The notes under the pieces are model-generated. The model made no database searches and was not told where the DNA came from. It was given only the letters and a program-made list of their open reading frames with translations. Below, piece after piece: positions 4,182 to 60,875 of a DNA stretch of 64,000 nt (positions are counted from its first letter, which is position 1; each line of letters starts with the position of its first letter). A program made the translations under genes and the position numbers. The DNA is from Methanobrevibacter sp. Its GTDB lineage: Archaea; Methanobacteriota; Methanobacteria; Methanobacteriales; Methanobacteriaceae. The stretch is from contig NZ_JAUNXI010000003.1 of NCBI RefSeq assembly GCF_030539875.1, forward strand, positions 1 through 64,000. Reading direction: 5' to 3'.

Positions 4182-7100
4182 ATGTTAAATAAATCATCAA
4201 ATATAATTGAAAAGGAATTTAAGAATTTACGTAAGGAGCTATTGGACTTAACTTTAAGAAATCCTCTTCTTAACTTTAAAACAAGAGCTAAAACCATTAC
4301 TATAGTAAATCAATCTCCCATTAATCTTTTTCAAACATTAGTTTTACAAAAGAATAAGATGTATTTTGTAGCTAATAAAAAAGACAAAAAGGAAGACAAG
4401 TCATCGGTTTGGGATCATATTCCATTTGATTTTTCGAAGTTTTCCGACGGAGATAAGAAGTTAGCTACTGATTTGACTCCAAAAGAGCTCCAAAAAAGAT
4501 TATATTACATCAATAACCAAGCTAAAACAATGCTTCAGGAACAGGGTTATAATATCTTATATTTAGCAGTCGGTTTTTTGGAATGGAAAGATAAATCAAA
4601 ACCAAGACAAAAAAACAGTGCTCCTTTGGTTTTAATTCCGGTTGCAATGGAAAGGAAAAAGGTTGGGGAATCATTTAACTTAGAATGGACAGGAGAAGAT
4701 ATTCAAACCAACATTTCACTTAAGGCCAAATTACTGGAAGCAGGTATTGACTTTCCGGATTTTGAGTTTAAAAAATACGGTGAAGTCATTGACCACTATA
4801 TAGCCAGCGTCCGCCGTGCAGTTGGCAGAATGAATGGGTGGGAAGTTAACAGTAATGTTGCTTTAGGTTTCTTTAGCTTTACAAAATTTGTAATGTATAA
4901 TGATTTAAACCCTGAAGCATGGGAATCCAATGTGGATTTGACTAAAAATGAATTAATTCAGGCTATTTTTAATCCTGCTAAAAATAATCAGGATGTTTTC
5001 AGAGAAGAGGATATTGATTCAAGTCTTGAATACAGGGATATGTATCAGGTTTTAGATGCTGATTCATCACAGATTGCAGCTATTCAGGATGTTAAAGCCG
5101 GAAACAATCTTGTTGTTGAAGGGCCTCCGGGAACAGGTAAATCACAGACAATTGTGAATTTGATTGCTGAGCTATTGGCTGAAGGCAAATCTGTTTTATT
5201 CGTATCAGAGAAGATGGCCGCACTTGATGTGGTGAAAGATAGGCTGGCTGCAGTTGGGCTCGGTAAATTTGTTTTGGAATTGCATTCACATAAAACAAGA
5301 AGGAAAAAATTCCTTAAAGATTTACAAAAGGCTACTAATGTAAGAAAACAGGAGCCGTTGAATATTGACCAGACAATTCGTAAGTTGGAAACTTTACGAC
5401 GTCAGCTTGATGATTATTCCCAGATTATTCATAAGCCATTATTTGCCGTAAACTTCTCAGCATTTCAATTATATGGTATGAAAGAATCTGCTGATGATCA
5501 TTTTGCAACTAAAGGTATGATAATGCCGTTGGTCAGATTTGAAAATCCGGATTCCATTACTTTAAAAGATTTGGATGACATGAAAATAGCTTTGGAAAAC
5601 TTAGCAGAATTATATCAGACAATTTCTAAAGAAAACCCTTGGAGCAAATGCGCTCCAAAAAGTTTGCTTCCGGCCGATTTAAGAGAAATTGAAATGTTGA
5701 TTGGAGATTCCTTGTTTTCTCTTGATAATTTCTTAGTGGAACGCGGAAGGGTTTATGATATTTATGGAATTAAAAAGCCGGACACTCTAAATGAATTTCA
5801 AAATTCACTTTCTGCTTTTGAAATAATTAAATCTCAAAATGCAGAACTAATTGACGGAAGCATACTGAAATCCGGAGCATGGAATAATAACAGTGATGAT
5901 GCATTTAAATTAATCAAAGAACTACAAACATATCAAAAATATGCCAGAAATTTAACTAAATTTAATCAAAGCATTTTTCAAGCAGATATTGACGCATTGA
6001 TATACGAGTTAAGAAATATTTCTAATAAAAAATTCAGGTTCTTTAATAACAAACAGCACATTGAACTTGTTGAAAGATATTATAAAAGCCCTGTTTCAGG
6101 AAATATTGATGAAATTATAAAAGATTTGCAGGAAGCAAAAGCAATTATTAAAATTAGAAAAAATCTTGAAGCTAATGAAGAGATAGGTCGAAAATACTAT
6201 GGGGGATATTGGCATTTAAATGCAAATGTCAATGATTTAAAGGCTATTGCTAAATGGATGCATGAGTTTAATGCACTTGTTCGCGCTGGAACATTTTCCC
6301 AAAACACGATTGACTTATTGAGTAAGGATTTATTCGATATTAAACCTGAAAGAGACCTTGCTGATTATATTGATGCAGGTGAAGAATTTGTTAAAACATT
6401 ATCCAAACTTAAAGACAAGTTAAATCCAAGAAGTAAATTAATCTTTAAAAGAGAAACAGGGGATGTTCCTTTTGAAGCATGGAAAGAACAGCTGTATAAC
6501 TGGAGAGGTCAGCTTTCAAGCCTTCATTTATGGTCTCAATATCTAAATACTAAAAAAGCACTTAAAAGTTCCAATGCTAAAATGTTTGTAGATTCAATCG
6601 AAAAAAGAAACATTAAAAAAGAGGATATTGAAGCGTTAGTCGAGGGGAACTTTGCAGATTCACTTTTAAATATCTTATTTATTGAAAATCACGAATTGGC
6701 AACATTTGTTGGTGAACTTCATGAAAATAGAATTAGGGAATTTGAAGATTTGGATAAACGGATTTTAGTCCTAAACCGTAAAAGGATTTACCATAAACTA
6801 AACAATAATATTCCGAAAATATTCGGTGGAACAGAAAATCCGCAGGCTAAAATTTTAGCCGGAGAATTTACAAGAAAAAGCGGGCACATGCCGGTTAGAA
6901 AACTTTTGGAAAAAACAGGAGGATTGATAAAACAGATTAAACCTTGTTTTATGATGTCTCCGTTATCAATTGCACAATACCTGGATCCGACAAATGAGGA
7001 ATTGCAGTTTGATGTTGTTATTTTCGATGAAGCAAGTCAGGTAAAACCTGAAGATGCATTGGGTGCATTTATGAGGGGAAAAACTGCTGTCGTCATGGGA

Positions 7101-10100
7101 GATACCCAACAATTGCCTCCAACTTCATTTTTCGACCAGATGTCAGATACAGAAAGTGATGAAGAAGAGGCAACATCAATCGACATGGAAAGTATTCTTC
7201 ATCTATGTAAATTATCATTTCCTGTTAAAATGCTTAAATGGCACTATCGAAGTCGTCACGAATCATTAATTACAGTTTCAAACCGGGAATTTTATGATGA
7301 TGATTTATTGGTTTACCCTTCACCTTCACATGATGACCCCGAACTTGGTTTAAAATTCCATTATAATCCAAATACAGTGTACCATAGAGGTTCATCTTCT
7401 GCAAACCCTCTGGAAGCGGAAGATGTAGTTGATGAAATATTCAATCACTTTGAAAAATATGGTGATACAAAAAGTTTGGGTGTTGGAACATTTTCCGTTG
7501 CTCAAAAAAATGCGATTCTGGAATCATTGGAAGTAAGACGTAAAGAAAGACCCGAATTCGAACCGCTGTTTTCTGATAATAAAGAAGAAAGATTCTTTGT
7601 TAAAAACCTTGAAACAATTCAGGGTGATGAAAGAGATGTTATTTTAATAAGTGTAGGTTACGGATATGATGAAGAGAGAAAAATGTCACTTAATTTTGGT
7701 CCTCTAAACCAAAATGGTGGTGAGAGAAGGCTTAACGTATTAATTACACGTGCAAGGGAAAAATGTGTCGTATTTTCAAACTTCAAGGCATATGATATGA
7801 AATTGACAGCAAATCCTCCATATGGTGTAAAATCTTTAAAAGAATTTTTGGAATATGCTGAAAACTTAACATTGGGAACCGCTAATCGGGATGAGTATAG
7901 TGAAGAGCCATTTGAAGATGCGATAGCTAGTTTTCTGGAAGAAAATGGTTATACAGTTGACAGACAAATTGGCTGTGCAGGTTTTAGAGTAAACCTTGCC
8001 ATAGTGGATGACGAAAATCCCGGAAAATATATTTTAGGTATCACAACTGATGGAAAAATGTACTCATCAAGTAAAGTGGCACGTGACAGAGACAGGCTCC
8101 GTGAACAGGTATTGACCGGATTAGGTTGGAAACTTTATCATTTATGGTCTACTGACTGGTATCGAAACAGAGATTTGGGTCGTAAAAAACTTTTGGATTT
8201 TGTTCAAAAATCAATCCGTCAAACCCGTAAAGAGGAAAAACGCAAATCTGAAGAAGAAAAAAAATTGGTTGAAAAAAGAAGATTGGAAGCTGAAAAGAAA
8301 GCTGAAGAATTGCGTATTGCACGTAAAAGGGAAGAAGCTGAGAGAAAAGCCCAGGAAGAACAGCACTATGGGGATATTGGTCCTATCGATTTTGTTGAAG
8401 TTGAAAAGGTTGATGATAGGGATATTTTAGAAAAACCTATTGATGTTAGTTCCATTTCTCCTTCAGAATTCTTTGAAGATGAAAATTCACAAGATTTGAT
8501 TAATGAAAATCGCACAACTGAAGATTATCCTTCTCAAGATTCATATAAAAAAGCCGATGCTGAAACATCTTCAAATTCGGCAGATAATGTTGAAAATGAA
8601 TCTGTTAAAAATAAACGCATAAAAGAAGAAACATTTGATGAAGAAATCTGGGAATATAATGAAGGAATTTCACCGGAAGATAATGCTGAAGTTTGGGAAA
8701 ATGATAAAGATTATTCAGATGAATCAAAAGGCGTTTCTCAAATAATTTCAGATAAGGTTAAGTCATTTCTGAAATCAGATGAGGAACAGAAGGATGAAGG
8801 TAAAAGTTCAATTTTCCCGTCTCTTAAATTTACGAAAAATATTGGTAATGATTCATCTTTTGATGAAAATATTGACAATACTGATTCAGAATTTGATAAA
8901 ACTTCAAAAGAGGATGATTCTGGTAAATCTGTGAAAGTTTCAGATTCTGAAACTGATAAAACTTCAAAAGAGGATGATTCTGGTAAATCTGTGAAAGTTT
9001 CAGATTCAGAATTTGATAAAACTACAAAAGATGAGAAGTCCAATGTAAAAGCACCAACTTTCAGCAGTAAAGTCGATTTAAAGTCAGGTATGGATAATTC
9101 TAAAATTAGTTCTGGAAAAAAACCATCTGGAAAATCCAGTGATAATGAAGTTGATTTGGACTCTAAGATTGATGAAGATAAATCTATTGGAGATATTAAT
9201 CCTAAAGATAAATCAGGTGATGGAAAAGTTGATTTAGGTTCTGATGAGGATTATATCTATGTTGACCACGGTCATGACCTGGAATATGAATCAGATAAGA
9301 AAATTGATGAAGAATTTAATTTCAAGTCTCATGATGGTGAAGAACAAGAAAAACCTCAAAGTCAAAAATATCCAAGGTCAAGCAGCAATTTTGTAAAATC
9401 AGTCATTTCCAATGTTGTTGCCGGAGAATCACGGCTTGAAAAAGAAGAAATTGAAACTGTTAAAGGCGAAATTGTTGAAGATAAGGATGCGCCTCTTCAA
9501 AAACCGTCTCCAAAAAAGGATTTTGTTGTAGAAGCGGAAATTGTTAATGACGGCAAGGATTTAAACATTTTCACTGATAGTTTTTCTAATGATGAAAACA
9601 TTAATCTTGAAAGACCTGCTCATAAGATGGATTATACTGAAGGTGAAGAATTAAATATTTTCACTGATAAATTACCTGATGAGACTCGGGAAATAATCAA
9701 CAGAAAAGCTAGTGATATTGTAGGCCGGGCAGTAGAAGAATTCCTTGATGATATGTTTGAAGATAAGGATATGATTGATGAAGATGACAATGAAACTGAA
9801 ATCAAATTTAAAAACGGAATTGATGAAGAAGCTCTTGAAGATGATAAAGTAAACATCAAAGATAATGAAGAGACCCAACAGGAAAATGAGGAAATTCCTA
9901 AAGAGAATATGGGTGATGGTTTTACTTATTATAAAGGTTCAAATGATGTGACAAGTAAACTTAGGAAGAATAATTTCTATTATGAAGAGGAAAAGCCGAA
10001 ATCTGTTAGAGATTCCATTAAAGGGATCAAAAAGGACATGAAATATATTAATAAATCATTAAAGGAAATTGAAAATCCAACTCAAATAGATTATGTCTCT

Positions 10101-10973
10101 GTTGTTGATAGAACCGAGGATTTTGACCCTATGGACTATTTAAATCGGCCAAGTGATGATGATTCTGATAAAATTATCGAAAGAGAAGAAAAATATGCAT
10201 TCGCTGAAGAAGAGTTAAAAACTGAAAATGAAACTATTGAGGATGATTTTACAAATGAAACTCCTGAGGAGGAGGTTATTGTTCCAATTCATGAACAAGA
10301 ACTTAAAGATCAAACTTTAGAGGATATTATTTCAAGTGCTAATGAAGACTATAAAGAAATAGAACGCGAAAGACGCCTTAAAAACAATCAATTAAAGTCA
10401 TTTGACGATAATAAACTTCCGGGCAAAAGAAAAATGGAAGATGAAATTGTTGATTATGTTCAAATTGAAGATATTGGACTGCATTCATCTGATGAGTTAT
10501 ACAGGCAGTCAGTTGAGAAAGTTGCCAAATCTGTTAATAACATTGTAGATATTGAAGGTCCGATTCATGTTAGTGAAGTCATTAATAGAGTTAAAGTTTC
10601 ATGCAATATTAAAAGAGCAAGTTCTAATTTGAAAAAACGGGTTAATGAAGCTATTGGCGAAGCAGAAAAATCAGGACATATCATTAAAATTGGAGACTTT
10701 TTATATGATGCTTCAAATAATAATATAGTTATTAGAAAACGGATTAAGCCGAATATTGATTTGATTTCAGATGAAGAAATTGCCAAAAATATCGAAACTG
10801 TATTGCTTCACAAACATGACATTACAATAAAGCAGGTTGCAAAAGAAACATCACGTAATTTCGGTTTCAAATCAACATCTAAAAAAACCGCAACAAGAAT
10901 TAATAGTGTTTTGGATTTGATGATTGCCAATAATAAAGTTAAACTTGACAATGATATTGTCGAACTTAAATAG
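4182..10973 (+). CDS. Giant DUF4011-type SF1 helicase with nuclease-like domain
   Basis: A 2263-residue protein. Residues 1-270 match the DUF4011 type N-terminus (LRKELLDLTLRNPLLNFKTR). An SF1 helicase core follows: Walker A GPPGTGKS (314-321), DEAS Walker B (949-952), a GDTQQLPPTSFF segment, and motif VI in the GGERRLNVLITRARE segment (about 1178-1192). Residues 1243-1345 resemble the restriction-endonuclease-like domain common at the end of these helicases. Then come a charged coiled-coil (1345-1400), a very long Asp/Glu/Ser/Lys-rich linker (about 1400-2080) with an internal tandem repeat, and a C-terminal DUF3320-like winged-helix part (about 2085-2263). Relatives are usually much shorter, mainly for lack of the acidic linker. 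A role in defence or DNA repair is inference; uvrC follows 7 bp later. TATA at 4136-4143, AAGGGG ribosome binding site. Confidence 0.85.
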   Translation: MLNKSSNIIEKEFKNLRKELLDLTLRNPLLNFKTRAKTITIVNQSPINLFQTLVLQKNKMYFVANKKDKKEDKSSVWDHIPFDFSKFSDGDKKLATDLTPKELQKRLYYINNQAKTMLQEQGYNILYLAVGFLEWKDKSKPRQKNSAPLVLIPVAMERKKVGESFNLEWTGEDIQTNISLKAKLLEAGIDFPDFEFKKYGEVIDHYIASVRRAVGRMNGWEVNSNVALGFFSFTKFVMYNDLNPEAWESNVDLTKNELIQAIFNPAKNNQDVFREEDIDSSLEYRDMYQVLDADSSQIAAIQDVKAGNNLVVEGPPGTGKSQTIVNLIAELLAEGKSVLFVSEKMAALDVVKDRLAAVGLGKFVLELHSHKTRRKKFLKDLQKATNVRKQEPLNIDQTIRKLETLRRQLDDYSQIIHKPLFAVNFSAFQLYGMKESADDHFATKGMIMPLVRFENPDSITLKDLDDMKIALENLAELYQTISKENPWSKCAPKSLLPADLREIEMLIGDSLFSLDNFLVERGRVYDIYGIKKPDTLNEFQNSLSAFEIIKSQNAELIDGSILKSGAWNNNSDDAFKLIKELQTYQKYARNLTKFNQSIFQADIDALIYELRNISNKKFRFFNNKQHIELVERYYKSPVSGNIDEIIKDLQEAKAIIKIRKNLEANEEIGRKYYGGYWHLNANVNDLKAIAKWMHEFNALVRAGTFSQNTIDLLSKDLFDIKPERDLADYIDAGEEFVKTLSKLKDKLNPRSKLIFKRETGDVPFEAWKEQLYNWRGQLSSLHLWSQYLNTKKALKSSNAKMFVDSIEKRNIKKEDIEALVEGNFADSLLNILFIENHELATFVGELHENRIREFEDLDKRILVLNRKRIYHKLNNNIPKIFGGTENPQAKILAGEFTRKSGHMPVRKLLEKTGGLIKQIKPCFMMSPLSIAQYLDPTNEELQFDVVIFDEASQVKPEDALGAFMRGKTAVVMGDTQQLPPTSFFDQMSDTESDEEEATSIDMESILHLCKLSFPVKMLKWHYRSRHESLITVSNREFYDDDLLVYPSPSHDDPELGLKFHYNPNTVYHRGSSSANPLEAEDVVDEIFNHFEKYGDTKSLGVGTFSVAQKNAILESLEVRRKERPEFEPLFSDNKEERFFVKNLETIQGDERDVILISVGYGYDEERKMSLNFGPLNQNGGERRLNVLITRAREKCVVFSNFKAYDMKLTANPPYGVKSLKEFLEYAENLTLGTANRDEYSEEPFEDAIASFLEENGYTVDRQIGCAGFRVNLAIVDDENPGKYILGITTDGKMYSSSKVARDRDRLREQVLTGLGWKLYHLWSTDWYRNRDLGRKKLLDFVQKSIRQTRKEEKRKSEEEKKLVEKRRLEAEKKAEELRIARKREEAERKAQEEQHYGDIGPIDFVEVEKVDDRDILEKPIDVSSISPSEFFEDENSQDLINENRTTEDYPSQDSYKKADAETSSNSADNVENESVKNKRIKEETFDEEIWEYNEGISPEDNAEVWENDKDYSDESKGVSQIISDKVKSFLKSDEEQKDEGKSSIFPSLKFTKNIGNDSSFDENIDNTDSEFDKTSKEDDSGKSVKVSDSETDKTSKEDDSGKSVKVSDSEFDKTTKDEKSNVKAPTFSSKVDLKSGMDNSKISSGKKPSGKSSDNEVDLDSKIDEDKSIGDINPKDKSGDGKVDLGSDEDYIYVDHGHDLEYESDKKIDEEFNFKSHDGEEQEKPQSQKYPRSSSNFVKSVISNVVAGESRLEKEEIETVKGEIVEDKDAPLQKPSPKKDFVVEAEIVNDGKDLNIFTDSFSNDENINLERPAHKMDYTEGEELNIFTDKLPDETREIINRKASDIVGRAVEEFLDDMFEDKDMIDEDDNETEIKFKNGIDEEALEDDKVNIKDNEETQQENEEIPKENMGDGFTYYKGSNDVTSKLRKNNFYYEEEKPKSVRDSIKGIKKDMKYINKSLKEIENPTQIDYVSVVDRTEDFDPMDYLNRPSDDDSDKIIEREEKYAFAEEELKTENETIEDDFTNETPEEEVIVPIHEQELKDQTLEDIISSANEDYKEIERERRLKNNQLKSFDDNKLPGKRKMEDEIVDYVQIEDIGLHSSDELYRQSVEKVAKSVNNIVDIEGPIHVSEVINRVKVSCNIKRASSNLKKRVNEAIGEAEKSGHIIKIGDFLYDASNNNIVIRKRIKPNIDLISDEEIAKNIETVLLHKHDITIKQVAKETSRNFGFKSTSKKTATRINSVLDLMIANNKVKLDNDIVELK
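8886..9025 (+). repeat. 60-bp in-frame tandem repeat in helicase linker
   Basis: About 2.3 copies of a 60-bp unit (20 residues, core DKTSKEDDSGKSVKVSDSE). The first two copies differ at only a few bases and the third decays after about 30 bp. The unit keeps the reading frame, so copy number can change the linker length without breaking the protein. It recurs in coding sequence with no spacer, so it is not a CRISPR array. Confidence 0.9.
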
Positions 10974-24133: not shown

Positions 24134-24698
24134 TCTGTTGTAGTGATTGGACCTTCAATAATGTAAAATTAATTTAATTTTACATTTTTTTTCTATTTTT
24201 TTTAGACTTATTTTTTATAACTTTTTAAATGTTTTTGTCCATGTTTTATACACAAAATCCGGTTCAAAAATTGTTTTATTTTGGATTTTTAATATTTTTA
24301 TAGCTTTTTGATTATTTGACCTTATTTTTAAATGTTAGTGATTATATGTATTGTTTTTTACTATAACTTAAATGAAATCAATGATTTTAGATTAAATAGC
24401 TTATAATCACATGTTATTTTATATAATGGGTCTTGTACTTACTGTTTGTAATTTGATATAATCTGTTATCTTAATATTTCATTTCATATACTTTAAAATT
24501 TTTATAGCTAGATTCATATTCATTTGTTCTTAATATCTTATTTTTATTATATTTTAACCTTATTTTTAAAAATTAGACTCATTTAAAGTGTTTTAAGGAA
24601 TAAAAAGCTTTATATAAGATATTTGACTAAACGTATTCTTGAAGTGAGACGGATGTCTCATGGATGAAATAAAAAAATTGTTATGGAGGTAAAATATT
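24134..24698. other. Long AT-rich upstream region of the wall protein
   Basis: 565 bp without a gene. It contains two diverged direct repeats: ATTTTTATAGCT at 24294-24305 and 24498-24509, and ACCTTATTTTTAAA at 24319-24332 and 24557-24570, in the same order. The promoter for the next gene sits at its end. Long AT-rich stretches of this kind are usual before adhesin-like genes in Methanobrevibacter. Confidence 0.5.
24609..24660 (+). promoter_or_regulatory. Promoter and leader hairpin of the wall protein gene
   Basis: TATA TTTATATA at 24609-24616, with the purine-rich AAAAAGC before it as a possible BRE. A perfect stem TGAGAC-GGAT-GTCTCA (24645-24660) starts 36 nt after the first TATA base, close to the expected 5' end of the mRNA. 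A 38-nt gap then leads to the TTG start, with GGAGGT at 24685-24690. Confidence 0.5.
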
Positions 24699-27600
24699 TT
24701 GAACAAACAAATGTTACTTGCATTATTGGTTGCAATGGCTGCTGTATTATCAGCGGGTGCAGTCTCAGCAGGTGATGTAAATGTTACAGATTCATATTCT
24801 GCAAACTTACTTGATAACTCATCTGATATTTCAACCCAAATAGATGATGATGCTGACTCATCTGTGAGTTCTGCATCTGAAGGGACAAATGTTGATAATG
24901 ATTTGTCTGTAGGTGAAGGAGTTTTGGAATCTGGAGAATCAAATAATTTATCGACTAACGCTGAAAATAACTCTTTAAGTGATGGTGCTGATGAAGATGA
25001 TTCATCAAATTTAGAAAACAATAGTTCTCAAACTATTGATGCATCTAATACTGTTACTTCAAAAGATCTTACTAAATATTACAAAGGAAGCAACCAATAC
25101 TATGCAACATTCCTGGATAAGTATGGTAATCCGCTGGTTAATAGTGAAGTTAATATTACTGTTAATGGAGTTACTTATACTAGAATGACTGATGAGTTTG
25201 GGGTTGCTTTTTTAGAAATAAATCTTTACCCAGGATTATACAATATTACATCTGAAAATCCTATTACTGGTTTTAAGCTTATTAATGTCATTAAAGTTTT
25301 ATCTACTGTTAGTTCAAAAGATCTTACTAAGTATTATAAAGGAAGTAATCAATACCAGGCAACTTTTTTAGATGGAAATGGAAATCCATTAGCAAATACT
25401 AATGTTAAAATTTCTGTTAATGGAGTTACATATACTAAAAAGACTAATTCGAAAGGTGTTGCTTCCCTAACCATTAATCTTAATCCTGGAACATATACGA
25501 TTACATCTCAAGATCCTGTTTCCGGTTATAAACTTAAAAATACAATTAAGGTTTTATCCACTATCACTGCAAGTGATATTTCCAAAGTTTACACTGACGG
25601 AAGGCTGTTTTATGCAACATTCTTAAACAGTGAAGGTAAACCTTTAACTAATAAAAATGTTAAGTTTAAGATTAACGGAAAAACATACACTAAGAAAACT
25701 AATGGTAAAGGTGTTGCTAGTCTTTCAATGACCAGTCTCAAGACAGGTACATACAAAATCATTTCTTATAACGTTGACGGTTTAACAAAAACCAACACAG
25801 TTAAAGTAATCAGTAAGACTAGTTCTAAACTTATTTCCAGTAGTTACACATTCTTTGAAAGTGATAAGAAGGTTATTAAAGTTACATTGCATAACGGTTT
25901 AGGTTATGCTCCGGGCAGCGGAAAAGTAATTAAATTCACAATTAACGGTAAAACATATTCTGCAAAGAGTAATAGTGCAGGGGTAGCTTCACTTACATTG
26001 CCTTATTTAAAGGAAGGCACTTATACAGTAAAATACAGTTTTGCAGGAAATATTTTCTATACAGCATCCAGTGCTTCTAATAAAGTATATATATTTTCCA
26101 GTAAAACGCCTAAATTCACTGTTAAAAGTGGAACTACTTTTGGTAAAGGTGCTGATTTACCATTTAAAGTTGCATTAACTTCAGGTAATACGCCTTTAGC
26201 GAAAAAAACTGTTATTTTCACTGTTAATGGTGTGTCATATACTAAAACCACTGATGAGAAGGGAATAGTTTCATTGCCTATTGGTCTAAATCCGGGCAAA
26301 TACACTATAACCTACAAATTTAATGGCGATTCAATATTTAACGCCAAAACTGGATCTTCAACTATCACAACTAAAGAAAGAGTTCCTGTTAATCTTGTTT
26401 GGAAAAGCGGAAATTCCTTCAGCCAGGGTGCACAAACTTACAAAATTTTACTACAGGATAACTCCGGTAAGGCTTTAGGCGGTAAAGTAATTAAACTGAC
26501 TGTTAATTCCAAAACCTATCAGGCTACTACAGCTTCAAATGGATATGCAACATTTAATGTAAATCTTGCAGCTGGAAATTATTCAGTTTCACTTAATTAT
26601 CTTGCAACTGGTGATAATGATTATGCACCTAGTTCTGGTAAGGTTAATATTTCTGTTGATAAAAAACCAAATGATGCTTATGGATATTGGGTTTATGGAC
26701 AAGATATGAAGAGTGTAAGCCTTAATAACTTAGCTTCACAGGGAACTACTGATTTATTCTTAAACTTTAAAGCGATTGAAACTCATGGTCAATCTGTGGT
26801 GGAATCATGGATAGATAATGCTAAAAAGTTAGGAATGAGGGTTCATATTTGGATGCAGGTATTTATGGAAGGTGGAACTTGGACAAATCCTGTTAAGGAC
26901 GGTAAGCCTAATACAGCATTTTTTGAGAAAAAAATAACTGAAGCTCAAAAATATGCAAAAATTAAAGGTATTGCAGGAGTACACCTGGATTATTTAAGAT
27001 ATCCAGGCAATGCTAATGAGACTGTTGGCGGTACTGAAGCTATAAATACTTTTGTTAAAGATATCGTTGGAGCTATTCATAATATTGATTCTAATATTAT
27101 CGTTTCATGTGCATTGATGCCTGAAACTACAAGCAGTGCATATTACTACGGTCAGGATTATTCTGTGATCAGTAAATACATGGATGTAGTTGTTCCAATG
27201 ATTTATAAAGGAAACTACGGCAAAACTTCAGCATGGATTACAACCACTGCAAAATGGTATATTGACAATTCCAAAGGAGCTCAGGTATGGGCAGGTATAC
27301 AGGGATATGTATCTGATTCAAATCCTACCAAACTATCAGCTTCTGCCATTAAAACTGATGCACAGGCTGCATTTAATAGTAAAGCTCCAGGAATAATCAT
27401 ATTCAGATGGGGTACAACTAACTTTGTGGATTTCAATTCATTATCTCAAACATCCTCAAGTGTTAGTGGGTACGTATCAATTGAAGAGATTATAGCTACT
27501 GCAATTAACTTAAAGAATACTATTGATTCAAAAAAAGAAATTCCAAAAACAGTTACTGTTGCAGGAGTAAGTTATTCAATTTCCCAGTTCTTGTATCTGA

Positions 27601-28898
27601 TGAGTGAAGCTGTCAAGCAGATTAATGCAGGCAAAGCTTCATCACAAATTAAACCAGTTTCATCAGGCAATCCTGCTGATCCTTCCGGTTCATTTAAAGG
27701 TACTTTAACAACTGCACAATATGTTGATGTGGCAAAAAGAGTAAGTTCTTATATTGTAAGTAACGGTCGTGCTCCAAACTATGCGAGTTTAGGTAATAGT
27801 GAAATTAAGTACGAGTCTTTAATAGAATTGTTTGCTAAAGTTTTAGCAGATTATTATGATAATCAAAAATTGCCAAGCAGTGAATCTGTGGGTGTTAGTA
27901 CAAATACGAATACAAATCCGCAGCCTATAACTAAAACAATATCTGTTAAGAATATTGTTCTTGGCGCTTCTAATTTGAAATCATACTATGAAAAAAATAA
28001 GGTATTGCCGTCCACTGTTACTGTGGCGGGAATTAAATTTTCATTACATGATTTCATGTATTTGATGAGTCAGGCCATTTATCAATTAGGTAACTCCAAT
28101 ACTAAGGACATTACTATAGTTGAAGGCATATCTGCTCCAAGCAATCCTTCCGGAGATACTATCAAATCAAAGGATTTGGATAAAGCCAACTTTATTAAAG
28201 TAGCTCAAAATACTGCAAGCTATATGAAAACTAATAAAAAAGCTCCTAATTACTCTGGTTCTGCAGTAGGTAATATTATTTACTCTGAACTAGTTGATGC
28301 ATTTTCACGTATCTTGGCTTTCTATAGTACTAATAATCGTTTACCTAATACTGTAACCATTAGTCATTCCGCTTCCGGATCTAGTTCTGAATCTGGAGTT
28401 GGGGCTACTGGTACCGGGTTAAATGAGAAAAATACTATCAAAGACTTAACAGCATATCTTAAAGCTTCTACTAACTGTCAGGTGAATAATGCTAAAATCA
28501 AAGCTCTGGTTGATTCATTAACTAAAGGTTTAACTTCTGATGAAGCCAAGGCTAAAAAGATATTTGAATATGTAAGGGATACTTTATCTTATAGTTTCTA
28601 TTACAACACCAAATATGGTGCAGTAGGCACTTTAAATGCCAAAGCAGGAAACTGTGTAGATCACTCACACTTATTAGTTGCCATGTACAGAAATGCAGGA
28701 CTCGCAGCCAGATATGTCCACGGAACATGTAAATTTACCAGTGGAAGCACATACGGTCACGTATGGGTTCAAGTGTTAGTTGGTGACACATGGCGTGTTG
28801 TTGACGCAACAAGCTCAAGAAATTCATTTGGAAAAGTAGCAAATTGGAATACAAACTCCTTTACCTTAAAAGGAATATATTCTAGTCTTTCATTCTAA
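24699..28898 (+). CDS. Secreted wall hydrolase: Ig-like, GH-like, PMBR, transglutaminase-like
   Basis: A 1399-residue exported protein. Order: signal peptide (1-26), acidic Ser/Asn linker (to 117), six Ig-like repeats of about 85 residues (118-655), a TIM-barrel domain like putative glycoside hydrolases with GVHLDYLRYPG around 758-768, four pseudomurein-binding repeats of two alternating kinds (about 926-1235), and a transglutaminase-like cysteine protease domain with Cys1319 (GNCVDHSH), His1354 (TYGHVWVQ) and Asp1369 (VVDATSS). The last domain resembles pseudomurein endoisopeptidases of methanogen viruses. So the protein can bind pseudomurein and may cut both its glycan and its peptide cross-links, as a wall-remodelling autolysin or a weapon against other methanogens. 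TTG start, 8 nt after GGAGGT. Confidence 0.85.
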   Translation: MNKQMLLALLVAMAAVLSAGAVSAGDVNVTDSYSANLLDNSSDISTQIDDDADSSVSSASEGTNVDNDLSVGEGVLESGESNNLSTNAENNSLSDGADEDDSSNLENNSSQTIDASNTVTSKDLTKYYKGSNQYYATFLDKYGNPLVNSEVNITVNGVTYTRMTDEFGVAFLEINLYPGLYNITSENPITGFKLINVIKVLSTVSSKDLTKYYKGSNQYQATFLDGNGNPLANTNVKISVNGVTYTKKTNSKGVASLTINLNPGTYTITSQDPVSGYKLKNTIKVLSTITASDISKVYTDGRLFYATFLNSEGKPLTNKNVKFKINGKTYTKKTNGKGVASLSMTSLKTGTYKIISYNVDGLTKTNTVKVISKTSSKLISSSYTFFESDKKVIKVTLHNGLGYAPGSGKVIKFTINGKTYSAKSNSAGVASLTLPYLKEGTYTVKYSFAGNIFYTASSASNKVYIFSSKTPKFTVKSGTTFGKGADLPFKVALTSGNTPLAKKTVIFTVNGVSYTKTTDEKGIVSLPIGLNPGKYTITYKFNGDSIFNAKTGSSTITTKERVPVNLVWKSGNSFSQGAQTYKILLQDNSGKALGGKVIKLTVNSKTYQATTASNGYATFNVNLAAGNYSVSLNYLATGDNDYAPSSGKVNISVDKKPNDAYGYWVYGQDMKSVSLNNLASQGTTDLFLNFKAIETHGQSVVESWIDNAKKLGMRVHIWMQVFMEGGTWTNPVKDGKPNTAFFEKKITEAQKYAKIKGIAGVHLDYLRYPGNANETVGGTEAINTFVKDIVGAIHNIDSNIIVSCALMPETTSSAYYYGQDYSVISKYMDVVVPMIYKGNYGKTSAWITTTAKWYIDNSKGAQVWAGIQGYVSDSNPTKLSASAIKTDAQAAFNSKAPGIIIFRWGTTNFVDFNSLSQTSSSVSGYVSIEEIIATAINLKNTIDSKKEIPKTVTVAGVSYSISQFLYLMSEAVKQINAGKASSQIKPVSSGNPADPSGSFKGTLTTAQYVDVAKRVSSYIVSNGRAPNYASLGNSEIKYESLIELFAKVLADYYDNQKLPSSESVGVSTNTNTNPQPITKTISVKNIVLGASNLKSYYEKNKVLPSTVTVAGIKFSLHDFMYLMSQAIYQLGNSNTKDITIVEGISAPSNPSGDTIKSKDLDKANFIKVAQNTASYMKTNKKAPNYSGSAVGNIIYSELVDAFSRILAFYSTNNRLPNTVTISHSASGSSSESGVGATGTGLNEKNTIKDLTAYLKASTNCQVNNAKIKALVDSLTKGLTSDEAKAKKIFEYVRDTLSYSFYYNTKYGAVGTLNAKAGNCVDHSHLLVAMYRNAGLAARYVHGTCKFTSGSTYGHVWVQVLVGDTWRVVDATSSRNSFGKVANWNTNSFTLKGIYSSLSF

Positions 28899-29078: not shown

Positions 29079-30356
29079 TTGTTAGATATAAAATTATTCA
29101 GAGAAAATCCTCAATTAATTATTGACTCTGAAAAGAAGAGATTTAGAGACACAGTAAATGTCGAAAAAGTAATTGAATATGATAATTTATGGAGAGACGG
29201 TGAGAAAAAACTTAACTTGCTCAGGTCTGAAAAGAATAAATTGTCTAAATCATTTAAAAAAGCAAAAGAAGAAGGTAATTTTGAAGAGGTTATCGCCAAA
29301 TCCAAACAGGTGGCTAATGATATTAAGGAATTAAGTGCTAAAAATGCAGACTTTCTTAAACTTAGAGATGATTACAGATATAAAGTTGGAAACATTATTG
29401 ATGAGGATGTGCCGATTTCAGATACCGAAGACGATAATGTGGTGATTACAACCTACGGTGAAATTCCAGAGTATGATTTTGAACTTTTAAACCATGTAGA
29501 TTTAATTAAAAAAATCGATGGAGCCGACCTTGAAACTGCTGCTGAAATTTCAGGGGCTCGTTTCTACTACTTAAAAAGGGATATTTTGCATCTGAACCTG
29601 GCATTAATCCAATTTGCATTATCAGAACTTGAAGCCGAAGGATATATTCCGATGCAGACACCATTTTTTGTCAAAGGTGAAGTTGCAGCCGAAACCTCTG
29701 AACTTGGTGAATTTGAAGAAACATTATACAAAGTGGAAAATGAAGATTTGTATCTGATTGCAACTGCTGAGCAGACATTAGCGGCGCTTCACAGAAATGA
29801 AATAATTTCACCGGAAGACCTGCCATTGAGATACTGTGCACTTTCAACCTGTTTTAGAAAAGAAGCAGGATCTCACGGAAAGGATACCTTAGGAATATTT
29901 AGGGTTCACCAATTTGAAAAAATTGAACAGTTCATTTATTCAACACCTGATGATTCAAGAAATCAGCATAATCATTTAATGGAAGTAACTGAGAGGATTT
30001 ATCAGAAATTAGGTCTTCCATATCAGATAATAGCTATTGTTTCATCTGCTTTAAATGATAATGCAGCTATCAAATATGATTTGGAAGCATGGTTTCCGGG
30101 TTCCGGAGCATTTAGAGAATTAGTTTCCTGCACTAACTGTAAAGATTATCAGGCACGTAAAACTAAAACACGTTATGGAAAAGCCGGTTCCGGAGATGCT
30201 CAGGTATTGCACACTTTAAACAGTACTGCTATTGCTACTGAGAGAACCATGTGCTGTATTTTAGAAAATTACCAACAGGCCGACGGCAGTGTCAAGATTC
30301 CTGAAGTGTTAGTCCCTTACATGAACGGAAAAACTATTATTGAAGTTAAAAAATAA
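29079..30356 (+). CDS. serS: Seryl-tRNA synthetase, common (bacterial) type
   Basis: A 425-residue class II synthetase. It has the N-terminal coiled-coil arm for tRNA(Ser) (about 30-105), motif 2 in ALSTCFRKEAGSHGKDTLG, motif 3 in NSTAIATERTMCCILENYQ and no zinc-binding N-terminus. So it is the common type and not the rare SerRS of several methanogens. The start is TTG at 29079, preceded 6 nt by GGGGA. An inverted repeat TTAATCATT (29012-29020) / AATGATTAA (29052-29060) lies upstream. Confidence 0.95.
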   Translation: MLDIKLFRENPQLIIDSEKKRFRDTVNVEKVIEYDNLWRDGEKKLNLLRSEKNKLSKSFKKAKEEGNFEEVIAKSKQVANDIKELSAKNADFLKLRDDYRYKVGNIIDEDVPISDTEDDNVVITTYGEIPEYDFELLNHVDLIKKIDGADLETAAEISGARFYYLKRDILHLNLALIQFALSELEAEGYIPMQTPFFVKGEVAAETSELGEFEETLYKVENEDLYLIATAEQTLAALHRNEIISPEDLPLRYCALSTCFRKEAGSHGKDTLGIFRVHQFEKIEQFIYSTPDDSRNQHNHLMEVTERIYQKLGLPYQIIAIVSSALNDNAAIKYDLEAWFPGSGAFRELVSCTNCKDYQARKTKTRYGKAGSGDAQVLHTLNSTAIATERTMCCILENYQQADGSVKIPEVLVPYMNGKTIIEVKK

Positions 30357-57233: not shown

Positions 57234-60200
57234 TTGCATAAACTTAAAAAATCTGCCGTAATATTTTTAATAGCTTTAATTTTTATTATTCCAACTGCAT
57301 ATGCCAGTGATAATCAAACGGAACTGAGTTTAAATGGTGATGAGGGTGTTTTATCCGATTCATATTATTTTGATGCAGGTGTTGCTGATGATATGGGAAA
57401 CGGATCAATCGATAATCCTTATAAAAGATTAACAAAAAATAGGATTAAGGATGACTCCACTATTTATTTAAATAATGGAGTATATGATAATGGAGTTTAC
57501 AAACAGGTTTCTAATTTAACCCTCATTGGTAAAAGTTGTGAAAACACGGTTATTGGGAATTTAAATTTAGAGATTAACGGTTATTTATTGGTTTATAATG
57601 TAACTTTTATTGATTGTAAAATTACCAGTTATGGAAATGTTTCATTGTTCAATTCAATTTTTAAAGATTCTTCATCATCAAATGGAGTTTTAACTTTGAA
57701 TTCAAAAACATTTCTTAATATAACTAATTGTACATTTACAAATAACTCTGTAAGTGATTATGGAGGAGTTATATGTGCAAACAATTCAAATATAAATATT
57801 TTCAATTCAGTTTTTGATGGAAATTCTGCAGAAAAATTTGCAGGAGCCATTTATTGCGATAACCGGTCAATGGTGACAATTAAAAATTCAAATTTTACTA
57901 ATAATCATGCGAAAAATGATGCAGGTGGGGCAATATATGCTATAAACTCAACCATTGTAGCAGATTATTTAAATATTTCAAATTCTTCAGCTACTTTTGG
58001 CGGTGCAATAACTTCCCTTAATTCCAATCTGCATCTGACTAATTTCAAATCTTCCAATAATAAAGCAAAATATCGTGGAGGTTCTATTTATTCAATTTAC
58101 GCCAATCAGACAATTGTAAATTCTACATTTGAAAATAACACTGCATTGGACGGCGGCGCCATATTTATTAATTATCCTTTTTTACTAAATCTAACTTCAA
58201 ATAAACTGATTAAAAATAATGCTTTTAACATTGGCGGAGCTATTTACATATTGTCTGATAAAAATAATTCTATTTTCAACAATACCTTTTTAAATAATTC
58301 TGCTGTATTTAATAATGATTCATATGAAACTGAATTGCCTAACTTGGCAATTGGAAATGGTGACTATATTCTAATTTATCATAATCAGCCTTTCATTGGC
58401 GATTTGCCAAGTAGCTATGATTTAAGAACTCTAAATCAGGTAACTCCTGTTAAAAATCAGGGTAGCGGAGGTAACTGTTGGGCATTTGCAGCATTGGCCA
58501 GTTTGGAATCTTGCATTTTAAAAGCAACAGGTAAAACTTTTGATTTATCTGAAGAAAATATGAAAAATTTAATGGCATTATACTCTGATTATGGATGGAA
58601 TATGAATCCTAATAATGGAGGTTTTCCTTCAATGGCAATTGGATATCTCACTTCCTGGTTAGGAGCTATAAACGAAAGCGATGATAAATATTATAGTTTA
58701 TCTGCATTATCTTCAGTATTTAACAGTTTTATTCATATTCAAAATATTTTATTTTTAAACAGAAAGAATTATACTGATAATGATGAAATAAAAAGGGCAA
58801 TTATCGAACATGGAGCTGTTTCAACCAGTATTTATTGGAAAACTGATTATCAAAATGGTAAAAGTTACTATAATGATAATGTTTCCAGTGCTAATCATGC
58901 AGTAGCCATTGTTGGATGGGATGATAATTATTCAAGAGATAATTTTAATAAACCTGCTCCTGGTGATGGTGCATGGATAATTAAAAACAGTTGGGGCAAG
59001 TATGCAGGAGAAAATGGATTTTATTACGTTTCATATTATGATTTAAGTATGGCCCGTATTAACGATCCATCAAAATCATATACTTTTGTTTTATCAGATT
59101 CAATTAAATATGATAAGAATTATCAATATGATATTTCAGGACAAACAGATTACTTATTTAGTTCATCAAGTTCAGTCTGGTATAAAAACAGGTTTACAGC
59201 AACTGATGAGGAATATCTAACTGCTATTTCAACATACTTCCAAAAAGAAACATCCTGGAATCTATATGTTTATGTAAATGGCGAGCTTAGATTAACTCAG
59301 TCAGGCAGTGCTGGTGCAAGCTATAAAACAATTGAATTGGACCAATTTATTCCTCTTAAAAAAGGGGATGTTTTTGAAGTTGCAATTAAATTAACTGCTG
59401 ATGGTGATGTAGGTGTTCCAATTTCAGAATACTTCTCTTTAAGTCATTTGCTTTTTGGTAAAAATGTTTCTTATATAAGTTATGATGGTGAAAACTGGTT
59501 TGACCTGTTCGATTTTAAGGGAAAATATCTTAGTCATACATATCACGGCTTACAAGTGGCTTGTATTAAAGCATTTACTGTATTGAACAAAATCAATTCA
59601 ACAATTGCACTGATTGTTGATGATTTAAATCCTGTTGAGTTAACTGCTATAATATTAAATCAATATGGAAATCCAATAAAAACAGGTAAGGTGACCTTCA
59701 ATATTGAAGGAACCGACTATGCTGCTGATGTTATAAACGGTATCTCGAAGTTTTATTATAAATTTAAAAATAATGAAAGTAAAGTAATATCCGCTAGTTT
59801 TAGTGATGTAGGATATATTGGGTCTTCTTTTAATATGACCATTATTCCAAGACAAGGTTCAATAATGGCGGATGATTCTGTTTATTATTATAATGAAACC
59901 ATTTATTATTCGGCTTTACTGCTTGACAATAACATGAAGCCTGTTTCTAATAGGGAAATTAAATTTAAAATTAATAATACTGAGTATGTTGCTTTAACTA
60001 ATAATGAAGGTATTGCAACTGTTTCTCTTAAATTAGATTTAAACAGTTACGATATTGAAATTGGTCTTAAGCATGATGAATTTAGCTTAGCTAAAAAAAT
60101 TACAGTCAAATCTTCAATTAAACTTCCAACCAACAAAAGATATGCTTACAATTCAAAATATTATGCTGCTCTTTTTGATGCAGAGGGCAATCCTATGTCC

Positions 60201-60875
60201 AATTGCAATTTAAAAATGATTATTAATGATGCATCTAAGTATGTAACCACTGACAGCAACGGTTATATTAACTACAATATTGCTTTAAATCCTGGGTCCT
60301 ACTCAATCATTATCATAAATCCAAAAACCAATGAGCAGTCAACTCAAACAATCAGTGTTGTTTCAAGAATAACTCAGAATAAGGATTTGACAATGTATTA
60401 TGGTGCCGGAAGCTATTATAAAGTTAAGGTTGTAGACGATAATGGAAAAGTTAAGAAGAATCTTAAGGTATCTTTTAAAGTAAATGGCAAGACATATTAT
60501 AAATACACTAATGAAAAGGGATATGCATCAATTAAAATTTCGCTAAAATCGGGAAAATATACAATTCTAACTACATATAAGGGATATAAGGTATCTAATA
60601 AAATCACTGTTAAGCCAACAGTCATAACAAAAAATATTAAAATCAAAAAAGGAAAAACAGGCAAATTCACAGCTAAATTAATCAGCAGCAAAGGCAAAGT
60701 TTTAAAATATAAAAAGATCACTTTTAAATTTAAAGGCAAAACATACATTATTAAAACAAATAAATATGGAATAGCTACTTTAAAGATTCCTAAAATAAAA
60801 TCGATTAAGAAGTATTCAGTAACTACAAGTTATGGTAGTCAGAAATATAAAAACACGATAAGCATTGTAAAATAA
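57234..60875 (+). CDS. Surface protein: beta-helix, papain-type protease, Ig-like repeats
   Basis: A 1213-residue exported protein. Signal peptide (1-24), then parallel beta-helix repeats with many GGAI and NSxF turns (about 50-380), then a papain-family (C1A) protease: Gln409, Cys415 (GNCWAFAALASLE), His555 (ANHAVAIVGWDD) and Asn585 (IIKNSWGKY). A lectin-like or jelly-roll domain follows (about 600-770) and several Ig-like repeats (about 780-1213), the last very lysine-rich (pI high), possibly binding the wall. All catalytic residues are present. TTG start, AGGAGG 7 nt upstream. Adhesin-like proteins of this genus often hold the C1 domain. Confidence 0.88.
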   Translation: MHKLKKSAVIFLIALIFIIPTAYASDNQTELSLNGDEGVLSDSYYFDAGVADDMGNGSIDNPYKRLTKNRIKDDSTIYLNNGVYDNGVYKQVSNLTLIGKSCENTVIGNLNLEINGYLLVYNVTFIDCKITSYGNVSLFNSIFKDSSSSNGVLTLNSKTFLNITNCTFTNNSVSDYGGVICANNSNINIFNSVFDGNSAEKFAGAIYCDNRSMVTIKNSNFTNNHAKNDAGGAIYAINSTIVADYLNISNSSATFGGAITSLNSNLHLTNFKSSNNKAKYRGGSIYSIYANQTIVNSTFENNTALDGGAIFINYPFLLNLTSNKLIKNNAFNIGGAIYILSDKNNSIFNNTFLNNSAVFNNDSYETELPNLAIGNGDYILIYHNQPFIGDLPSSYDLRTLNQVTPVKNQGSGGNCWAFAALASLESCILKATGKTFDLSEENMKNLMALYSDYGWNMNPNNGGFPSMAIGYLTSWLGAINESDDKYYSLSALSSVFNSFIHIQNILFLNRKNYTDNDEIKRAIIEHGAVSTSIYWKTDYQNGKSYYNDNVSSANHAVAIVGWDDNYSRDNFNKPAPGDGAWIIKNSWGKYAGENGFYYVSYYDLSMARINDPSKSYTFVLSDSIKYDKNYQYDISGQTDYLFSSSSSVWYKNRFTATDEEYLTAISTYFQKETSWNLYVYVNGELRLTQSGSAGASYKTIELDQFIPLKKGDVFEVAIKLTADGDVGVPISEYFSLSHLLFGKNVSYISYDGENWFDLFDFKGKYLSHTYHGLQVACIKAFTVLNKINSTIALIVDDLNPVELTAIILNQYGNPIKTGKVTFNIEGTDYAADVINGISKFYYKFKNNESKVISASFSDVGYIGSSFNMTIIPRQGSIMADDSVYYYNETIYYSALLLDNNMKPVSNREIKFKINNTEYVALTNNEGIATVSLKLDLNSYDIEIGLKHDEFSLAKKITVKSSIKLPTNKRYAYNSKYYAALFDAEGNPMSNCNLKMIINDASKYVTTDSNGYINYNIALNPGSYSIIIINPKTNEQSTQTISVVSRITQNKDLTMYYGAGSYYKVKVVDDNGKVKKNLKVSFKVNGKTYYKYTNEKGYASIKISLKSGKYTILTTYKGYKVSNKITVKPTVITKNIKIKKGKTGKFTAKLISSKGKVLKYKKITFKFKGKTYIIKTNKYGIATLKIPKIKSIKKYSVTTSYGSQKYKNTISIVK

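Follow-up and report, generated by a model that had tools for sequence, protein, structure and literature searches.

Can one archaeal protein cut both the sugar chains and the peptides of pseudomurein? The question is raised by a gene in a 64,000-nucleotide stretch of Methanobrevibacter sp. (contig NZ_JAUNXI010000003.1, positions 1 to 64,000), referred to here as the window; the gene with its parts and the two further window genes recorded below lie on its forward strand. The gene (24699-28898) encodes a predicted secreted protein of 1399 amino acids, in which a signal peptide is followed by immunoglobulin (Ig)-like repeats, a glycoside-hydrolase-like (GH) domain, pseudomurein-binding repeats (PMBR) and a transglutaminase-like (TG) domain. 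The original prediction had placed two putative catalytic domains on either side of the wall-binding repeats, and this arrangement was borne out by Pfam and by the predicted folds. Proteins with the GH-PMBR-TG order are named trios below. We consider it fairly probable that the window protein is a bifunctional pseudomurein-remodelling hydrolase of autolysin type, comparable to staphylococcal Atl.

Translation of the trio gene begins at a TTG codon preceded by a Shine-Dalgarno-like GGAGG (24685-24689), and a second trio copy in the genome likewise begins TTG-Asn-Lys. Residues 1-24 (24699-24770; ...SAGAVSA/GD in the translation) resemble a signal peptide or signal anchor when read by eye. Six Ig-like repeats of the Big_1 / Big_3_5 type (about residues 120-640, 25056-26618; Pfam Big_1 4.7e-27 in six stretches) form a probable stalk. 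They are followed by the GH domain (residues 655-920, 26661-27458), by the PMBR array (about residues 926-1222, 27474-28364), identified by Pfam (PMBR 4.1e-29, four significant stretches) and by the genome search, and by the TG domain (residues 1245-1399, 28431-28895). NCBIfam offers no model that passes its cut-off for the protein. Because dozens of species share the order of the three domains, chance is excluded as its origin, and the ratio of nonsynonymous to synonymous substitution (dN/dS) of the window gene against other species is about 0.1-0.3 per domain.

A hydrolase fold had been proposed for residues 655-920 and is present. AlphaFold2, supplied with an alignment of 67 homologues, gives a TIM barrel for residues 650-922 (pLDDT 95.1, pTM 0.92), a (beta/alpha)8 barrel whose strand ends carry conserved acidic residues. 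Its top match among solved structures in Foldseek is the Clostridioides difficile autolysin Cwp19 (E 3e-10, TM 0.68-0.70), with PgaB, an enzyme of an amino-sugar polymer, and SleL, a cortex-lytic enzyme, ranked lower. A profile of the GH family searched against the PDB matched GH18 proteins (4wiw, 4e-12) and the spore proteins YaaH/SleL, and the domain is described as DUF4015/GH18-like. Pfam assigns it to DUF4015, 'putative glycosyl hydrolase' (1.9e-6, 27.7 bits, cut-off 27), while GHL10 remains at 18.3 bits against a cut-off of 27.9, the similarity to that family being one of fold only. The putative catalytic residue is Asp764 (codon 26988-26990) in the HLDYxR motif at the end of beta-4, invariant in 177/177 aligned GH domains; Glu809 (27123-27125) in the MPE motif at the end of beta-5, conserved in 175 of the 177, is the second candidate. 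The active-site residues of Cwp19 are Asp196-Tyr197 on beta-4, Tyr297 on beta-6 and Phe367 on beta-8 (PMC5765458). By strand order, we infer that D764-Y765, Y836 and F902 are their strand-end counterparts, Asp764 corresponding to Asp196; all are near-invariant over the 177 domains, viral and bacterial ones included.

The TG domain (Pfam Transglut_core 4e-23) is modelled by AlphaFold2, from an alignment of relatives, as a papain/transglutaminase fold (pLDDT 94.1). Its Foldseek matches include 3isr and the two viral pseudomurein endoisopeptidases PeiP (8z4f, 1.5e-6) and PeiW (8jx4, 2e-5), and it also matches the PHROG family 'pseudomurein endoisopeptidase' (1.5e-6). Cys1319 (28653-28655) is the putative nucleophile of a triad with His1354 (28758-28760) and Asp1369 (28803-28805), and none of the three varies among 76 TG domains of trios and 12 from proteins lacking GH. 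The Cys-His-Asp triad thus occurs together with PMBR repeats (PMBR 4e-29), the combination characteristic of Pei/C71 enzymes. The TG tree is too poorly resolved to split hydrolases from cross-linkers.

Four known systems show parts of this architecture. PeiW and PeiP (MEROPS C71) share with the window protein the PMBR and the Cys-His-Asp TG-like domain, but they are viral proteins of about 300 amino acids with N-terminal PMBR and without a GH domain or Ig stalk; the earlier statement that known Pei enzymes consist of binding repeats and protease only is supported. Cwp19, a GHL10 autolysin, also carries wall-binding repeats after its barrel (PMC5765458, PMC6016235) and shares with the window GH the Asp-Tyr of beta-4, the Tyr of beta-6 and the Phe of beta-8 (PMC5765458), whereas its substrate is bacterial peptidoglycan, it has no peptidase domain and identity is 16-17%. 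Staphylococcal Atl joins two wall-cutting domains, amidase and glucosaminidase, in one polypeptide (PMC3409170); the window protein corresponds to this layout in its predicted domains, but folds and wall chemistry are unrelated and Atl is proteolytically processed, so that the likeness is one of analogy only. The Group-III TG-type adhesin-like proteins of Methanobrevibacter smithii and Methanosphaera stadtmanae resemble the window protein in their N-terminal Ig-like repeats, PMBR and C-terminal transglutaminase, and for one M. smithii protein the source lists a domain as a putative glycosyl hydrolase, proposing in the sections consulted neither a glycan-cutting role nor a link to PMBR-TG (PMC11532034). 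The domain combination is moreover common, and to call it a new type was an overstatement.

Trios are found throughout Methanobrevibacter and in many other genera, and the GH domain in 123/139 genomes of the family and in 134/152 sampled genomes of the phylum, representing all 20 sampled genera and four families. Trios without Ig repeats occur in Methanobacterium-like genera and in the genomes that we take to be Methanothermobacter thermautotrophicus delta-H and Methanothermus fervidus, while an Ig-bearing trio of 1503 amino acids (L075) belongs to a genome that is presumably M. smithii PS. Other arrangements include PMBR-GH proteins without TG and Ig-GH proteins without PMBR, among them tandem pairs; the latter type is also encountered in genomes that we assume to be Methanosphaera. 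In one Methanothermobacter-group genome (G151, L252:2939-6277), the PMBR block of a 1113-amino-acid trio is expanded into long near-identical tandem copies.

Within the window's genus, the trio adjoins the thermosome gene in 18/18 sampled loci, which also contain a DtxR-like regulator gene (17/18) and trpS (16/18). In the window's own genome (G000), this conserved locus holds the second trio copy, split between two contig ends (C26:1-1902 and C12:64501-66067; L053, L052). It follows that the window gene, which adjoins the open reading frame 29079-30356 (a seryl-tRNA synthetase from its sequence), is a paralogue that has been relocated. The two copies are about 82% identical (dS about 0.25, dN/dS about 0.4), but their TG parts are 96% identical with a dS of 0.07, which suggests that these parts were homogenised by gene conversion. 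The proposed chromosomal location is supported, and a prophage origin of the gene was rejected on the basis of its housekeeping neighbours and the paralogue in the core locus. A further GH paralogue of this genome (C6:74031-74791) is broken over two reading frames, probably through decay into a pseudogene or through faulty assembly.

Relatives of the GH domain are also found in viruses. Two rumen viral contigs of IMG/VR (L144 and L145, about 80 kb, with wider stretches L225 and L226) encode proteins of 582-588 amino acids (L144:5992-7737; L145:5992-7755) composed of a GH domain (DUF4015 at 35.3 bits in L144), two PMBR and a C-terminal cysteine-peptidase-like domain, and are candidates for two-bladed endolysins. 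The peptidase domain matches Peptidase_C39 at 2e-4, slightly below the cut-off. Related contigs (L228, L231) encode, in the position that the GH-bearing protein occupies in L144 and L145, PMBR with the same peptidase domain but no GH, followed by a small protein of the same kind and, in L231, by an integrase-like open reading frame, with Baseplate_J and archaeal MCM on the same stretch; PHROG endolysins are matched in L231. In the GH tree, the viral domains (support 100) are nested in a well-supported clade (99) of Methanobrevibacter trios, and the natural reading of the sequences is that a virus joined a host GH blade to its own lysin. The viral GH-PMBR-C39 protein would then be a separately assembled two-bladed enzyme, and it is the best indirect sign that GH attacks the wall. 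A tblastn search of GH against named phages gave no match, and the viral GH evidence therefore comes from metagenomic contigs. The viral C39-type domain, examined for likeness to PeiR, likewise had no match in the genome taken to be Methanobrevibacter ruminantium M1, and no link to PeiR is therefore claimed. Methanobacterium virus Drs3 carries, at the end of its tail genes, a PMBR-TG protein (orf35) with motifs as in the trio C-terminus. The C-terminal domain of the L144 protein (7219-7737) matches PDB 22oc ('P210 WT') at E 1.6e-22.

Stand-alone GH proteins of about 300-390 amino acids, 46-56% identical, are encoded in rumen metagenome-assembled genomes labelled Kiritimatiellae/Verrucomicrobia (GC 0.55-0.64). 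The loci (L176, L177, L180, L184, L186, L187, L190, L192, L193, L211 and L218) are assigned to Kiritimatiellota/Verrucomicrobiota, and several of the proteins have a visible signal peptide. Mis-binned archaeal contigs were considered as their source and rejected for most, given a GC of 0.55-0.65 and bacterial-type neighbours. The bacterial proteins form one clade (99) within the same trio clade as the viral domains, and it looks, from these sequences, as though rumen Kiritimatiellota acquired them from methanogens. They may attack or digest methanogen walls, or the substrate of GH may be broader than pseudomurein.

In the favoured reading, the signal sequence would export the protein, the Ig-like repeats would serve as a stalk and the array would, from the known function of PMBR, dock it on pseudomurein. 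The GH barrel would cleave the amino-sugar glycan strand and the Cys-His-Asp TG domain would break the (iso)peptide cross-link, the two cuts together opening the wall as the cell grows, as daughter cells separate or during turnover. This reading draws on the architecture, the predicted folds, the invariant active-site residues, the conservation among pseudomurein producers, the synteny of the core locus and the viral reuse of GH in lysin-like proteins. We favour hydrolysis by TG, since a related TG and the same GH are both employed by viruses in proteins of lysin-like type. A wider proposal, which we hold tentatively and at rather less than even chances, is that GH is the first known family cutting pseudomurein glycan, is ancestral to the pseudomurein-walled Methanobacteria, forms with the isopeptidase an archaeal counterpart of Atl, was captured by viruses as two-bladed endolysins, and was taken up by rumen Kiritimatiellota, which secrete it to attack methanogen walls or to feed on them. 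Several results weigh against the autolysin reading. DUF4015 barely exceeds its cut-off in the window protein (27.7 against 27 bits), and Peptidase_C71 (Pei) falls below its own (20.6 against 22 bits). GH domains without PMBR or TG are common, as in the tandem Ig-GH pairs and the Methanosphaera-like genomes, and bacteria have a stand-alone copy, so that the GH substrate may not always be pseudomurein. Among the 152 genomes of the phylum, two of the Methanothermobacter group and the one presumed to be M. ruminantium M1 have no GH match, and the function of GH is therefore dispensable or replaceable.

The free-standing bacterial copies, together with the many Ig-GH paralogues lacking PMBR and TG and the adhesin-like nature of the Ig repeats, would also suit a wall-anchored adhesin-like or digestive surface protein, whose GH domain would act on glycans of the rumen or the host, with PMBR only as an anchor and TG joining the protein to the wall or to other proteins. 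M. smithii proteins with TG and PMBR are classed as adhesin-like in PMC11532034. This explanation is nevertheless improbable, as viruses place GH in a PMBR-endolysin. Ig-less trios are moreover present in genomes that we take to be Methanothermobacter and Methanothermus, thermophiles from outside the gut. Formation rather than hydrolysis of cross-links by TG is unlikely too, though somewhat less so: the trio would then remodel or synthesise the wall, with a loose resemblance to a class A penicillin-binding protein (PBP), GH trimming or transferring glycan and TG as the transpeptidase. The exported transglutaminase group OG0000044 has been named the best candidate for Glu-Lys cross-linking (PMC11915815), and cross-link formation by a transglutaminase was likewise proposed in PMC2812497 (Fig. 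S6). The window TG scores far higher as Transglut_core than as C71, which points the same way. To our knowledge there are no PBP-like genes in pseudomurein archaea, which also counts for cross-linking. However, the structure matches of TG include PeiP and PeiW, lysin-like proteins of viruses combine GH with a peptidase of C39 type, and the PMBR-TG protein with the same motifs stands at the end of viral tail genes, where cross-linking makes little sense. The missing GH of the presumed M. ruminantium M1 further implies that the trio is not a general polymerase. A bacteriocin-like weapon, one of the roles first envisaged and here taken to lyse competing methanogens, is very improbable. Two lytic-type domains with a wall-binding array would fit it, and some bacterial wall hydrolases of the lysostaphin type are weapons (a class discussed in PMC12352652), but the family is old, with one conserved core locus (all 18 sampled) and a wide, vertical-looking spread. 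Housekeeping genes flank the window copy, and at the loci examined neither a mobile context nor any immunity-like neighbour was noticed.

Two other window genes were recorded. One (57234-60875) encodes a 1213-amino-acid adhesin-like protein in which Pfam recognises domains of the papain-family C1 protease, lectin-like and Big_1 types, a kind of protein proposed for pseudomurein turnover (PMC2812497). The other (4182-10973) encodes a 2263-amino-acid DUF4011-helicase-MTES_1575 nuclease protein; PADLOC matches it to PDC-S37 (1646 bits) and Hhe, and from its sequence it is likely an anti-phage defence gene.

An early review describes Pei as the earliest known enzyme able to break down pseudomurein sacculi, and it already suggests that Pei activity may reside in two proteins of M. 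smithii (PMC2989375). The pseudomurein enzymes described in the openly searchable literature cut peptides only; our search there brought up no pseudomurein glycosidase, subscription papers and preprints being outside it. The same literature appears to hold no account of trios as conserved wall enzymes, of their capture by viruses and bacteria or of the nesting seen in the tree. In archaea the trio probably corresponds to the two-headed autolysins of bacteria, with GH as a candidate for the first pseudomurein sugar-chain hydrolase. A glycan-cutting blade, if true, would aid DNA extraction, protoplasting and the control of rumen methanogens. An apparent trio homologue (G149 C1, about 299180-301380) in the genome that we take to be M. 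thermautotrophicus delta-H, a genetically tractable species, makes the question directly testable. The wider question is by what means archaea with pseudomurein breach their own wall during growth and division, and the trio offers a conserved candidate for both blades.

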